Below, piece after piece: positions 6,553-39,849 of a stretch of DNA of 64,000 nt (positions are counted from its first letter, which is position 1; every line of letters starts with the position of its first letter). Source of the stretch: a virus; the IMG/VR virus record IMGVR_UViG_3300031344_000005, positions 1 to 64,000 of that record. The stretch is one strand, 5' to 3'. Position numbers and translations under genes: made by a program. The notes under the pieces were generated by a model. That model was not told where the DNA came from, ran no database searches, and saw nothing but the letters and a program-made list of their open reading frames with translations.

Positions 6553-7029
6553 ATGGAAACAACAATCCGACAGTTTGGCCGACCGTGGATGGCTGTAACC
6601 ATGAAGTGCCTAAGCGTGCGGCAGCCGTGGGCCTGGGCCATCATCCACGCGGGCAAGGATGTGGAAAATCGCACATGGGCGACTAGCTATCGCGGGTTGC
6701 TGGCGATTCACGCCGGCAAGGGCTGCACGCGCGCCGAATATGACGCCGCCGCCGTCGAGATAGAGCGGATCACTGGCAGGCGTCCGCCGCCGCTGTCCGA
6801 GTTGCCGCGCGGTTGTGTGGTCGGCATGGTGGAGATGAACGACTGCGTAACCAGCGGAGAGACCGAAAACGACTGGGCACAGGACGGCTACTGCTGGTGG
6901 ATGCTCACCAATGCGCGGGCGTGCAACCCCGCAGTCACGCGTGGTCATCTAGGGCTGTTTGAGGTAACCACGGAGCTTCTCTTCCCCAACGTAGCGGTCA
7001 TCGCGGGCGCAGCCGAGACTTTCGGCTAG
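6553..7029 (+). CDS. ASCH-domain protein
   Basis: The sequence carries the ASCH signature SVRQPWAWAII (residues 21-31), KDVENRTW (35-42) and YRGLLAIHAGK (46-56), followed by GCVVGMVEM. ASCH proteins have a PUA-like RNA- or nucleotide-binding fold, and some have nuclease or amidohydrolase activity. Start choice: ATG 6553 has AGGAAG upstream, while ATG 6601 is closer to the domain but lacks a ribosome-binding site. The 3' end overlaps the convergent gene at 6949 by 81 bases. Confidence 0.7.
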   Translation: METTIRQFGRPWMAVTMKCLSVRQPWAWAIIHAGKDVENRTWATSYRGLLAIHAGKGCTRAEYDAAAVEIERITGRRPPPLSELPRGCVVGMVEMNDCVTSGETENDWAQDGYCWWMLTNARACNPAVTRGHLGLFEVTTELLFPNVAVIAGAAETFG

Positions 7030-7686
7030 CCGCTCGCGCGCCTCGCGACTTTCGCAGATTACAACCAAGTAGCGTTCCGTATCTTCGGCGGTCGCGTCGG
7101 CATGGCCCTTGGCGCGCATCTGTTGGCGAGCCTCTTTCGCCTTCGCTTCCGCGACGGCTCGTTCTTCAGGCGTTGGCTCTGGCTTCTTTCGAGTGGCGGC
7201 GATGTCTTGCAACTCCCCGATGGCGTTTTGCATTTCGGGAGCCTGCGATTCCAGGGAAAAGAGTCCTGTCCCGTCGAACATGATCTCCAGTTCCGTCACG
7301 TCGAAGCCTGTCTGATCTAGGTTAAGTTCTGGCAGCATGGGGGCCAACAAGGCGAGATCCCACTCTCCCATGGCTGCGGCGTTGTTCAGAAAGAGCCCCT
7401 GCTCTTTCTCTTGCTTCTCGGTTAGGTTGACCACCGAAACATCTAGCATGTAGTCCGTCGATCCCTCCAGTGCGTCGAGGCACGCAAGGCGTTGGTGGCC
7501 ACCGACAAGGTGGCCCGTCTTCTGGTTGAAGATGACCGGCTCAAGCATCCCAACGCGCTTGAGGTTGGCCTGGAGCTTTTTCTTTGCGTGAGGGGAAATC
7601 TTGCGCGGGTTGACCGGAAGGCCCACGATGGAATCGCGCGAGACTCTCTCAACCTTGAACTTCTGAAACTTGGTCAGGTCGCTCAT
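6949..7686 (-). CDS. ParB-like (IbrB-like) nuclease-domain protein
   Basis: A 245-residue protein with a ParB N-terminal-like fold: NPRKISPHA (about 26-34), MLEPVIFN, and the nucleotide-binding box LVGGHQRL (60-67). The middle (EKEQGLFLNNAAAMGEWD) also fits phage ParB-like proteins. The C-terminal half is charged and divergent. It follows and overlaps an IbrA-like PAPS-reductase-family gene by 38 bases. That pairing is the IbrA/IbrB arrangement known from E. coli prophage elements. GGAGG lies upstream of the ATG. The substrate is unknown. Confidence 0.75.
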   Translation of the reverse strand: MSDLTKFQKFKVERVSRDSIVGLPVNPRKISPHAKKKLQANLKRVGMLEPVIFNQKTGHLVGGHQRLACLDALEGSTDYMLDVSVVNLTEKQEKEQGLFLNNAAAMGEWDLALLAPMLPELNLDQTGFDVTELEIMFDGTGLFSLESQAPEMQNAIGELQDIAATRKKPEPTPEERAVAEAKAKEARQQMRAKGHADATAEDTERYLVVICESREARERLAESLGCARDDRYVGEEKLRGYLKQP

Positions 7687-8359
7687 GGATCATGGCCTCC
7701 GCAAAGGGGAACGAGCGAAGAAGGGTTTGCCAGTCCTCGGAGTGGTTGCATTTCAGCCAACGCAGACACGGGGTGATGAGGGCGAATCCTCCCATGCGTG
7801 AGTTCTCGTCGCCAAAGCGGATTGGCGTAGGAATCTTGCGTGCCCGCATGTAGCCGAACACATCGGCATCGACCCAGTCCCAGATGGGCGCCACTTTTCC
7901 CCCCTCGGCTCCGCGGTCATGGATGCCGTCGACCTTGCGATGATGCAGCCGCCTCGTCATGGAGTCGGTTGCACGTTCGCCGTAGGCGAACCAGGAGATG
8001 CCCGTCTTCTTGGTCAGGTAGTGCTCCACGTCCCGCAGCTTCAGCTCGGGTAACTTCTCGGCCGCATCTACATGTGGCCGGAGCACGGCATACTTGGCGA
8101 TGCGAGCGAGATCCCAGTGCGGGACGAAGTGCAGCGGAACATTCGCGCGTTTGGCCGCTTGCTCGACTTGGTCCTCTACGCAGCGGAGACCCCGACACAA
8201 ATACATGAAGTAGGCTTCGACATGAGAGAAGGCACGGCAGCAAATATCCAACGTGACCAGGCTGTCCTTGCCGCCCGATAGCCCAACAAGAAGCGAGCCG
8301 CCCGACATCTGAGATGCACGGGCGGCTCGCTCTGAAGCTGTCGCCAGCTTCGATGGCAT
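7649..8359 (-). CDS. PAPS-reductase-family PP-loop protein (IbrA-like)
   Basis: This 236-residue protein has the ATP-pyrophosphatase PP-loop SGGKDS at residues 28-33 and a sulfonucleotide-reductase-like core. Near its C-terminus lie two cysteines (TPCLRWLKC) in place of the usual catalytic motif. In the family this fold activates substrates by adenylation, and relatives include DndC-type proteins. With the downstream ParB-like gene it forms an IbrA/IbrB-type pair. Its ATG comes 2 bases after the tiny gene 8362-8424. No dndD or dndE neighbour is present. Confidence 0.78.
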   Translation of the reverse strand: MPSKLATASERAARASQMSGGSLLVGLSGGKDSLVTLDICCRAFSHVEAYFMYLCRGLRCVEDQVEQAAKRANVPLHFVPHWDLARIAKYAVLRPHVDAAEKLPELKLRDVEHYLTKKTGISWFAYGERATDSMTRRLHHRKVDGIHDRGAEGGKVAPIWDWVDADVFGYMRARKIPTPIRFGDENSRMGGFALITPCLRWLKCNHSEDWQTLLRSFPFAEAMIHERPDQVSEVQG

Positions 8360-8361
8360 TG

Positions 8362-8424
8362 CTAGACGCGGCCCGAACCGCCGCCGCCTTTGCCCTTCTT
8401 GCCCTTCGCTGCTTTCTTTGCCAT
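8362..8424 (-). CDS. 20-residue Lys/Gly-rich basic peptide
   Basis: A short frame starting at ATG 8424 encodes MAKKAAKGKKGKGGGGSGRV. It has a well-placed GGAG ribosome-binding site (about 7 bases upstream) and stops 2 bases before the IbrA-like start. The good translation signal and tight spacing suggest real translation, possibly as a coupling leader or a nucleic-acid-binding peptide. Its size makes it uncertain. Confidence 0.45.
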   Translation of the reverse strand: MAKKAAKGKKGKGGGGSGRV

Positions 8425-8502
8425 GGTGTTCTCCTACTTACTGCCCCTGTAGACCGGGGCCGTCACGTGACGCGAAGTATGTTACCATAGTCGTGGCACG
8501 AG

Positions 8503-9978
8503 ATGCTAGCTTCCGCCGAACTCCACGACCTCGAAGGCGCCTACCGCACCGCTGATGAGACGCTGGTGCGGCTGGCCCGCCGGTCGATGAAGGCGTTTTT
8601 CAGCTACGTGATGCGGGACGAGGAGACCGGCGCACCCGTCGAGTTCGCGCCGATACATGAAGACTGGCACCGGCTGGCCGACCAGTACGACCGGCTGATG
8701 CTGTGGAGCTTCATGGAGTCAGGCAAAACCTTCAGCCTTAGCGTCGCCCGCACGCTCTGGGAGTTGGGGCGCGACCCGACGTTGCGCTTCGCCATCGTCA
8801 GCAACACCAGCGGCATGGCGGTCAAGATCGCGAATCAGATCGGAAAGTACATCACGCAGTCGGCGGAACTGCACCGGGTGTTTCCACACCTGGAGCCTGA
8901 CCCCAGCATGCCGTGGAACAGCGAGCAGCTCACGGTCAAGCGGCCGACGTTGTCCAAGGACCCGTCGGTCAACACTCTCGGAATCGGCAGTAACACACAG
9001 GGCGCCCGCATCGATCGGGCCATCCTGGACGACGTGCTGAACCGCGAAAACACGCGCACCCAGTACATGCGGGACGAGTCGCAGGACTGGTACCTGAAGA
9101 CCATCCCGGGCCGCATGACGGAACGTGGCCGCATCCTCGGAGTCGGCAACGCTTGGAACCCGGACGACCTCTACCACCGGCTGGTGAAAAACCCGCGCTG
9201 GAAGGGCTACAAGTTCCCCATCCTGAAGCCCGACGGCAGCAGCGCGTGGCCCGAAGTCTGGCCGCTCGACCGCATCGAACGGCGCCGCCAGGAGTTGGGC
9301 CCGCTCGAATCCATGAGCCAATTGATGTGCCAGCCCATCGACGACGCCATGGCGCGGTTCAAGCGGGAGTGGATCGAGGCTTGCCTGCGGCGTGGCGAGG
9401 GCAAGTCGCCCGTCTACGCCCTGCGAGGCATGCCGACGGGCCTGCGGGTCTTCTGCGGCGTCGACTTGGCGGTGGGGCTGAAGAAGAGCCACGATCTGAC
9501 GGCGTTCTTCGTCCTGGCTGTTCACCCGAATGGCGACCGCGAGGTACTGTGGGTCGAAGGTGCGCGCCTCCTCGCGACCGACATCATGGGCAAGGTGCGG
9601 GAGTTGCGGGATCGCTTTCACCCCATCTTCGTGATCGAGAACGTGGCGGCGCAGGACTACCTAGTGCAGCTCCTCCAGGGAAGCACGTCGATTCCGATCA
9701 TTCCCTTCGCTACGGGCAAGAACAAAGCTGACCCGACATTCGGGCTCGAAGCGATGAGCGCCGAGTTCGCAGCCGGCAAGTGGATAATCCCGAACCATGG
9801 CGGCGTCTGTGAGCCCGAGATCCAGGCATGGGTCGACGAAATGCTCAGCTACAGCCCGTCGGCACACTCGGGCGACAGGTTGATGAGTTCGTGGTTCGCC
9901 AAGGAAGGCGAGCGCCTCGGGGCCGTCGCGCCCGCTCCGCCCACCGGGATCATGCCGCTCCGTTTGAATCGCTGGTGA
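8503..9978 (+). CDS. terL: Terminase large subunit
   Basis: A 491-residue ATPase-nuclease motor of DNA packaging. The Walker-A-like loop is MESGKT (residues about 71-76), which lacks the usual leading glycine. Walker B is RAILDD (172-177), and the coupling motif is GVGNAWN (213-219). The C-terminal RNase-H-like nuclease has acidic residues at CGVD (D321), FVIEN (E379) and SGDR (D458). The order and length fit large terminases. The start follows the divergent promoter region shared with the leftward IbrAB-like genes. Confidence 0.92.
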   Translation: MLASAELHDLEGAYRTADETLVRLARRSMKAFFSYVMRDEETGAPVEFAPIHEDWHRLADQYDRLMLWSFMESGKTFSLSVARTLWELGRDPTLRFAIVSNTSGMAVKIANQIGKYITQSAELHRVFPHLEPDPSMPWNSEQLTVKRPTLSKDPSVNTLGIGSNTQGARIDRAILDDVLNRENTRTQYMRDESQDWYLKTIPGRMTERGRILGVGNAWNPDDLYHRLVKNPRWKGYKFPILKPDGSSAWPEVWPLDRIERRRQELGPLESMSQLMCQPIDDAMARFKREWIEACLRRGEGKSPVYALRGMPTGLRVFCGVDLAVGLKKSHDLTAFFVLAVHPNGDREVLWVEGARLLATDIMGKVRELRDRFHPIFVIENVAAQDYLVQLLQGSTSIPIIPFATGKNKADPTFGLEAMSAEFAAGKWIIPNHGGVCEPEIQAWVDEMLSYSPSAHSGDRLMSSWFAKEGERLGAVAPAPPTGIMPLRLNRW

Positions 9979-11923: not shown

Positions 11924-12088
11924 GTGGACCGGCCCGACATCATCCCATGCTGGCAGCATCGGTTAGCTGATCTTCGCCGAACCGTGCGCGATTGCCAGCA
12001 TGGTGGGCAGAAGCTACGCAACGATGAGGGGCAACTCTTCTGTGCGGATTGCGGACGCCACTTGAACGACGATGGGGGCGAGGTTTGA
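11924..12088 (+). CDS. Tiny zinc-ribbon protein
   Basis: GTG 11924, with GAGGAAG about 8 bases ahead, opens a 54-residue frame. It contains C-x2-H, then C-x2-H, then FCADCGRH, a plausible zinc-binding set. Its TGA overlaps the TTG start of the next gene (TTGA), the coupling seen throughout the window. The function is unknown. The length is below what most automated calls keep. Confidence 0.5.
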   Translation: MDRPDIIPCWQHRLADLRRTVRDCQHGGQKLRNDEGQLFCADCGRHLNDDGGEV

Positions 12089-13227
12089 AGATCGCGATCG
12101 ACTGGGATGGCACGGTGGTCAGCCGAGACCGATCGTATGCCGATGTCACGACGCCCATGGAGTTCGTGCCTGGGGCCAAGGAAGGGCTGCTGGCGCTGAA
12201 AGCCGCTGGCCATTTGCTTCTGCTTTGGAGCGGCCGCGCGAGCCGCGCTTTGCTGGTAGACCCCGAGCTTGACCCCTTCGTGCGCGCCGGCGTCGTCGAG
12301 GTGGACCGCCGACATTGGCAAGAGTCGCGCTGGCTTCATCAGGCGCGTTATGACCAGATGATCGAGTTCGTCGAGCGTGAATTGCCCGGCGTGTTCGATG
12401 CCATCGACGACGGCCTGGCGGGTAAACCCAGCGTGGATCTCTTCATTGACGACAAGTGCATGGCGATGCGCGGCCCTGCCACGTGGGCGCGGATTGCTCG
12501 CCAGTACGGCGAAGAGCAGCCCCTGTTCGACGAGCCCGCGGCGACTGGCCTGCTGGCCCGCCCGGTCGCGAGCCTGAACTTAGTGCCTGCCGGGCCCCTG
12601 AAGGACATTCTCGACAGCGTGCGGGGCGAACTGAAGGCCGCCGGCATCGTGCACTTCGAGCCGCACTTCGCCTTGGGGGATTCGGGCTTCTGGTGTGCCG
12701 ACCGCGCCCTGACGGTCAATATCCCATGGTTTCTCGCCACCGAGGAGCTGCACCAGCTCGCCCAGGCCCGCTACCCGATGCAGTGGAGCGACGTGCTCCG
12801 GGGCGTCCGGCACGAAGTCGGGCACGCCTTGAACTACGCCTTTGAGCTGTGGAAGCGCGAGGATTGGCGGCGTACCTTCGGCGACTTCACGGCGCCCTAC
12901 CCGGATCGGCCCTGGCCTGTGGCGCCCGACAGCCCGGACTTCGTTGAGTACGTGCGGGACAGCGGGCCAGGGTACAGCCAGCGGCACCCCGATGAAGACT
13001 GGGCCGAGTCTTTCGCCTGCTGGCTGGACCAGGCGTCAGATTGGCGGCGACGCTACATGGCGGGTGCTCGTCGTAAGCTGGAATACGTGGTCATCATCGC
13101 CCGGGACGTGCTCTGCGGCTGGCCTAGCAACTACAACCTGGGGACGCCGCGGGCTTGGCGGGAAGCTTTCAGGGGGCAGACCGTCGCGCAGGCCCTGGCG
13201 ATACCAACCGCAGAAAACGGGCCTTGA
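12085..13227 (+). CDS. HAD-like domain fused to zinc metallopeptidase-like domain
   Basis: TTG 12085 is chosen because it overlaps the upstream TGA and begins exactly at the HAD motif, giving 380 residues. The N-terminal part (about 1-140) has HAD motif I DWDGT (6-10) and a late acidic motif FIDDK (120-124). The C-terminal part has HEVGH (243-247), a gluzincin-type HExxH, with a downstream ExxxxE-like EDWAESFA (304-311) that could supply the third zinc ligand. Similar HExxH...EDWAE patterns occur in putative zinc-binding metallopeptidases. The fusion within a head-gene cluster is unusual. The role is unknown. Confidence 0.7.
   Translation: MKIAIDWDGTVVSRDRSYADVTTPMEFVPGAKEGLLALKAAGHLLLLWSGRASRALLVDPELDPFVRAGVVEVDRRHWQESRWLHQARYDQMIEFVERELPGVFDAIDDGLAGKPSVDLFIDDKCMAMRGPATWARIARQYGEEQPLFDEPAATGLLARPVASLNLVPAGPLKDILDSVRGELKAAGIVHFEPHFALGDSGFWCADRALTVNIPWFLATEELHQLAQARYPMQWSDVLRGVRHEVGHALNYAFELWKREDWRRTFGDFTAPYPDRPWPVAPDSPDFVEYVRDSGPGYSQRHPDEDWAESFACWLDQASDWRRRYMAGARRKLEYVVIIARDVLCGWPSNYNLGTPRAWREAFRGQTVAQALAIPTAENGP

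Positions 13228-38349: not shown

Positions 38350-38350
<1 letters not shown>
38084..38350 (+). CDS. Small baseplate-region protein
   Basis: An 88-residue protein with an ATGA overlap. The C-terminal third is Gly/Asn/Ser-rich. It sits between the spike and fibre genes and may be a spike tip or fibre-attachment protein. It does not show the metal-binding PAAR signature, so this is a guess. Confidence 0.45.

Positions 38351-39845
<1,495 letters not shown>

Positions 39846-39849
<4 letters not shown>

Follow-up and report, generated by a model that had tools for sequence, protein, structure and literature searches.

Small basic proteins with Gly-rich tails accompany a widespread phage PP-loop/ParB gene pair: a tentative case for C-terminal tail activation

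We found that a gene pair encoding a PP-loop ATP pyrophosphatase and a ParB-like protein is a real and widespread phage module, carried beside the packaging genes by many unrelated phages, and that small basic proteins are encoded with it. These small proteins share little but a flexible, usually Gly-ending tail, which suggests that the enzymes may act on the tail. The case is built on the linkage of the genes, the protein-level conservation of the small partners, their shared tail, the predicted folds of the two enzymes and the intact PP-loop residues. As the best explanation, we tentatively propose that the module carries out ATP-dependent activation of C-terminal tails, in which the tail would be the substrate, adenylation the probable chemistry and an amine acceptor a possible destination, with an ASCH protein in a possible accessory role.

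Results

Organization of the locus

The window, that is, the whole stretch of DNA analyzed here, is the first 64 kb of the 82.8-kb virus record IMGVR_UViG_3300031344_000005 and has a GC content of 63%. The features of the locus are as follows.

6601-7029 (start at 6553 possible), (+) strand: ASCH-domain protein, convergent (phrog_3193, 2.1e-42)
6949-7686, (-) strand: ParB/Srx-fold protein of 245 aa with a GHQR motif and a conserved C-terminal domain (phrog_9353, 2.9e-51)
7649-8359, (-) strand: PP-loop ATP pyrophosphatase of 236 aa, PAPS-reductase fold, SGGKDS motif (PF01507, 4.8e-9)
8362-8424, (-) strand: 20-aa basic peptide MAKKAAKGKKGKGGGGSGRV, upstream partner of the PP-loop gene
8431-8436, (-) strand: TAGGAG ribosome-binding site of the 20-aa peptide, read from the sequence
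8503-9978, (+) strand: TerL, divergent neighbour (phrog_38, 1.7e-67)

A preliminary description of this DNA had placed a 20-residue basic frame with a ribosome-binding site immediately upstream of the PP-loop gene, a convergent ASCH gene over the end of the ParB-like gene, and the whole group beside the terminase. Re-reading of the ORFs bore this out, with all coordinates right: the PP-loop and ParB-like frames overlap by exactly the 38 bp reported, 2 bp separate the stop codon of the peptide from the PP-loop ATG, and the ASCH gene shares 81 bp with the ParB-like ORF. The TerL and portal genes point away from the pair, on the side opposite from ASCH. For the ASCH start at 6553, an in-frame upstream ATG does exist, but the relatives start near 6601.

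Elsewhere in the window, an ORF located 3' of the portal gene (12049-13227, + strand) matches phosphoheptose isomerase over its first 160 residues (phrog_1238, 4.1e-12), and it is possibly a sugar-related moron. The ORF at 38350-39849 (+ strand) encodes a tail-fibre protein with collagen-like matches (phrog_6320, 4.2e-31, and others).

Distribution of the PP-loop/ParB pair

Scans of viral and genome contigs yielded 156 PP-loop loci, which were reduced to 70 non-redundant loci by clustering at 70% identity. A ParB gene lies on the same strand within 3 kb of the PP-loop gene in 66 of these 70 loci, so that the co-occurrence on which the preliminary description had staked the pair is present, and ParB overlaps the end of the PP-loop gene in 41 of them. 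The large neighbour gene encodes TerL in at least 31 of 60 loci, as counted by phrog_2 alone. The pair is found beside the terminase in the same order in Riemerella phage RAP44, with a 38-bp overlap, and in Lactobacillus phage LR1 (PP-loop AYN56722, ParB AYN56724, tagged protein AYN56723); in Bacteroides phage BS-TP2, the order is ASCH, a 53-aa gene, PP-loop, ParB (35-bp overlap), DUF5681, TerL and portal. The hosts include Bacteroidota, Lactobacillus, Neisseria, Actinomycetota, Spirochaetota and Planctomycetota. In the tree, the window PP-loop protein groups with that of locus L102 (98/90), then with L020 (100/97), and then with L021 and L022 (98/89). The record of Shigella phage Henu10 (OQ791282) has a PP-loop/ParB region as in Riemerella phages, with an identity equal to PT03/PT15, which suggests that this record is mislabelled or contaminated.

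IbrA/IbrB-like pairs have been described from prophages and even from a Heimdallarchaeal virus (PMC8813620, PMC4490671, PMC6008420). Related genes are carried by phage Y8A (PMC10434257), and phage eta has a ParB homologue and no modified bases (PMC3918226); the accessible parts of these last two sources do not describe the tail protein.

The Pfam ASCH score of the convergent neighbour is slightly under the cut-off. Of the 70 loci, 18 have an ASCH gene within 3.5 kb of the PP-loop gene, in 12 of them in convergent orientation. Genes of this ASCH subfamily are also common where the pair is absent (L108-L179, most ASCH loci), and of 80 ASCH loci, just 5 contain a PP-loop gene, including two copies of the window; ASCH is thus an optional associate of the pair. 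In some ParB-first loci, ASCH overlaps the end of the PP-loop gene instead, and the link therefore outlasts gene rearrangement. A YqfB-type amidohydrolase has the catalytic triad Lys21-Thr24-Glu74 (PMC6972931). We rejected this activity for the window protein, in which the nucleophile Thr24 is replaced by Glu and the Lys and Arg are kept.

Small basic proteins upstream of the PP-loop gene

The window peptide ends in GGGGSGRV. In the nearest relative, L102, a 76-aa peptide (MAKK...SSGKSG) takes the position of the 20-aa frame, and across the relatives this position is filled by short basic ORFs with Ser/Gly tails, ending in LGLSGG, FGLSTG, SSGGGGG, KAGTSGGG, SSGKSG or LGGKGG. The conservation check proposed for the 20-residue frame thus gave a positive answer, with no peptide recognised upstream in the second-closest relative, L020. 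A basic ORF with a Gly-rich tail precedes 34 of 68 PP-loop genes; for the other genes of these loci, which served as controls, the figure is 19 of 341 (p = 1e-17), and ParB genes account for several of the 19. The suspicion that the tiny peptide was a missed component was therefore right.

The tail patterns used in this count were written after examples had been seen, and the count of terminal Gly residues is free of them, since 26 upstream ORFs were picked by position and ribosome-binding site alone. Seventeen of the 26 end in Gly, against 8% of small ORFs generally (p = 5e-13). In five of these 17 cases, the upstream ORF is ParB itself, from a locus with the ParB-first order, and its final GGA is in part dictated by an ATGA overlap; when these five are excluded, 12 of 21 upstream ORFs still end in Gly.

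The terminal Gly is not universal, the exceptions being the window, L021 (ending in SGQ) and a Riemerella/Alistipes/B. fragilis clade. The loci of this clade (L016, L224, L227, L228, L232 and L233) encode a homologous family of basic upstream peptides (M.E.YAT...GerY.rk.DY..GR...), the ends of which are NGAI, RNIRR, GNGR and GGRVV. Six ParB-first loci (L028, L031, L033, L035, L023 and L181) have no small upstream peptide, and ParB itself ends in NKSGATG, NKSGLG, KTGAGG or GKGGMTG, as though ParB had taken over the tag, a pattern partly confounded by the ATGA overlap.

Might the 20-codon frame be merely a translational leader or a chance frame, with the pair acting alone? Its length and the stop codon just before the PP-loop start would agree with this, as would the fact that its only copies found sit in near-identical contigs, the two IMG/VR copies being 100% identical in their flanking proteins. 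As a control, we shuffled the spacer, and 65 of 5000 shuffles gave an ORF of at least 20 codons that was preceded by a Shine-Dalgarno sequence and ended at the PP-loop start. The comparative evidence for the peptide is far stronger than this figure, since the relatives show protein-level conservation, variable Gly codons and multi-copy tagged genes, and we regard a mere leader as highly improbable.

Further tagged proteins near the pair

Relatives often have one to four extra small basic proteins between or 3' of the pair, and where PP-loop and ParB are apart, the gap holds at least one more small basic ORF with an unrelated body and a similar tail. Three tagged ORFs occur in L095 (all ending in GLSNG), two in L066 and four in L205, and Lactobacillus phage JNU_P7 encodes QHJ75009 (GSTGSKGG), QHJ75010 (GSTGSRGG) and QHJ75013 (FGSKGG). 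The 109 distinct tagged ORFs, a few of which are evidently chance frames, fall into 66 body clusters. Their products are 19-170 aa in length with a net charge of about +0.1 to +0.4 per residue; GLSNG, LSGG and GSTGSRGG are examples of their tails, and the bodies are mostly unrelated. Unrelated bodies with one terminal motif near two enzyme genes look like a set of substrates that share a tag. A PHROGs search gave no significant match for the peptide or the tagged proteins, and neither PHROGs nor the literature searched, the coverage of which is incomplete, yielded a description of the tail proteins. When the whole 82.8-kb record was searched for tagged proteins, only the 20-aa peptide and one weakly charged chance frame were obtained.

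Tagged ORFs account for 30 of the 779 small ORFs lying between -500 and +1500 of the PP-loop start, compared with 14 of 6348 on the other strand (p = 2e-19), and for 27 of 10877 small ORFs in 75 ASCH loci without a PP-loop gene; the enrichment beside the PP-loop gene is approximately 17-fold. The terminal Gly codons are GGA (45), GGT (37), GGC (23) and GGG (4). Given that all four codons are used, a ribosome-binding site is not the general cause of the Gly tails, and we rejected the idea that these codons serve as the Shine-Dalgarno sequence of the PP-loop gene because GGT and GGC are common, with the GGA/ATGA overlap in ParB-first loci as a caveat. The pN/pS values (a dN/dS-type ratio) of alignable tagged-ORF pairs were 0.23 for the bodies and 0.40 for the last six codons, which indicates that the tagged ORFs are selected proteins.

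Another possibility is that the small proteins bind DNA or reside inside the virion, that their common tail serves as a tag for binding or packaging, and that no enzyme-substrate pair is involved. The internal proteins of phage T4, for example, share an N-terminal capsid-targeting sequence. The positive charge of the tagged proteins, the adjoining terminase and portal genes, and the combination of differing bodies with one tag are what this explanation would lead one to expect. However, tagged ORFs are dense around the two enzyme genes and no commoner than background at a distance of 2-3 kb, and this tight clustering points to a closer link with these enzymes than with packaging genes generally. 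We thus consider a packaging tag unlikely.

Features of the two enzymes

The window PP-loop protein scores 36.9 bits against PF01507 (cut-off 22.5). In 35 aligned members of the family, S28, G30, K31, D32, S33, H81, G127, D132, R136, P158 and D209 are invariant, and there is no invariant or near-invariant Cys; the three family alignments (A1, A3 and A5) all lack an invariant Cys. When the family profile was compared with solved structures, CysD, the small subunit of ATP sulfurylase, was matched at 3.8e-6. A Foldseek search with the AF2 model (pLDDT 93) gave TtuA as the closest structure (1.2e-9, TMq 0.55), followed by CysH, NcsA and LarE. The nearest predicted fold is therefore TtuA, and the nearest sequence profile is CysD. 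PP-loop enzymes adenylate carboxylates, carbonyls or oxyanions, and the features predicted here fit an ATP pyrophosphatase in which the adenylation of an oxyanion would need no cysteine relay.

The ParB-like protein resembles ParB both in a profile search against the PDB (4.8e-5) and in a Foldseek search with its AF2 model (pLDDT 87), in which ParB-CDP 6sdk was matched at 2.5e-6 and sulfiredoxins more weakly. It has GHQRL at the place of the GERRxRA nucleotide motif of ParB clamps. No HTH family was matched in Pfam and PHROGs searches, and no DNA-binding domain was recognised by inspection of the predicted model. Its C-terminal domain is conserved in the family.

Comparison with known systems

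IbrA, DndC, CysH, TtuA, QueC and the ParB clamp each fail at least one of the features tested. CysH identity was rejected because the catalytic C-terminal cysteine is missing from the family and the NCBIfam CysH scores are far under the cut-off.

Similar to IbrA/IbrB (YbdN/YbdM in K-12), the phage pair consists of a PAPS-reductase-fold protein followed by an overlapping ParB-like gene, and such pairs also occur in prophages. In contrast to YbdN, the phage protein has 236 aa rather than 406 aa, shows 21% identity in a single comparison (E = 0.002) and has no DUF3440 (PF11922) in a Pfam search, a domain that YbdN, an IbrA-type protein, carries (2.6e-32). We therefore rejected membership of IbrA, and the IbrA/IbrB-like label given earlier stands for the overlapping ParB-like partner but is loose for the enzyme. 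Inspection by eye of the 160 bp preceding ybdN revealed no Gly-tailed peptide. If the pair were nevertheless a regulator of this type, it would switch phage or host transcription together with the small basic DNA-binding proteins. IbrA/IbrB are co-activators of prophage eib genes according to a report cited in PMC6008420, and the gene order in K-12 is the same. The missing DUF3440, the low identity to YbdN, an alignment to YbdM of about 30 residues and a ParB-like model with no recognisable DNA-binding domain speak against a regulator, which we judge to be improbable.

DndC and BrxP also belong to the PP-loop family and have a ParB-superfamily partner (DndB) nearby. DndC has both a cysteine dyad and a 4Fe-4S site formed by three cysteines (PMC10853773). 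The phage family lacks these conserved cysteines, and a PADLOC run gave no DndC match, so that the DndC-like thiolation raised in the preliminary description is not supported. More broadly, the pair could protect phage DNA by a DndC- or TtuA-like sulfur or base modification of nucleic acid, with the peptide as a sulfur carrier or nucleic-acid anchor. Although TtuA, NcsA, LarE and CysH are the top fold matches and ASCH proteins can read or hydrolyse modified bases (PMC6972931), the same lack of cysteines and of a DndC match makes this, to a similar degree as a regulator, improbable.

TtuA-TtuB and Ncs6/NcsA-Urm1 provide the closest predicted fold and a PP-loop enzyme served by the C-terminus of a small protein; TtuA receives the C-terminus of its donor TtuB (PMC7138817). 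However, TtuB is a folded ubiquitin-like protein that is activated elsewhere, and TtuA requires Fe-S cysteines, whereas the phage family has no conserved Cys and its putative partners are short, basic, 19-170-aa proteins without family matches, often several per locus. QueC-family PP-loop proteins, including the conjugases Cap9 (type IV CBASS) and QatC, act on flexible Gly-containing protein N-termini (PMC13279940, PMC11996544). These enzymes, which are PF06508 members with Zn cysteines, have an N-terminal Gly as their target, whereas the phage enzyme is PF01507-like, with a PF06508 score of 14.8 bits against a cut-off of 22, and the tails encoded beside it are C-terminal. Activation of a C-terminal carboxylate by ATP is the chemistry of CBASS Cap2, Bil and microcin C MccB, which use E1/ThiF-fold enzymes; none was seen at the phage locus.

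Discussion

According to our proposal of tail activation, a cysteine-independent PP-loop ATP pyrophosphatase and its ParB/Srx-fold nucleotide-binding partner would act on small basic proteins, with the flexible Ser/Gly-rich C-terminal tails as the point of contact. ATP-dependent adenylation of the C-terminal carboxylate, usually that of Gly, would be the likeliest chemistry. The protein may then be transferred to an amine, or its tail modified, beside the genome-packaging machinery, and ASCH, where present, may be an accessory reader or eraser of the product. In the window, the partner would be the 20-aa peptide, the tail of which (GGGGSGRV) implies either that a final Gly is not needed or that the tail must be trimmed. 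One argument against tail activation is that the known PP-loop enzymes served by Gly-tailed carriers depend on Fe-S cysteines and on a carrier of beta-grasp fold, neither of which is present here.

The position beside the terminase and ParB makes delivery linked to DNA or the virion a reasonable if speculative idea, and a counter-defence or modification role of the pair is possible. In its most specific form, the module would be an undescribed phage protein-tagging system: a PP-loop ATPase would stand in for E1 and work with a ParB-fold partner to activate the C-terminal Gly of small basic proteins that have nothing in common but a terminal recognition tag. These proteins would then be attached to DNA, to a nucleotide or to a virion protein, with delivery or counter-defence as the probable purpose. 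We regard this full scheme as rather unlikely as it stands.

Phage PAPS-reductase-like genes are routinely annotated as auxiliary sulfur metabolism, and IbrA/IbrB-like pairs as regulators. Our data argue that at least this widespread PP-loop family does something else, together with small partner proteins that have been overlooked. The module is present in isolated phages (Lactobacillus LR1 and JNU_P7, Bacteroides BS-TP2 and Riemerella RAP44), and it is thus testable now. If the tails are indeed substrates, then phages would own a C-terminal activation chemistry that is independent of E1 enzymes.
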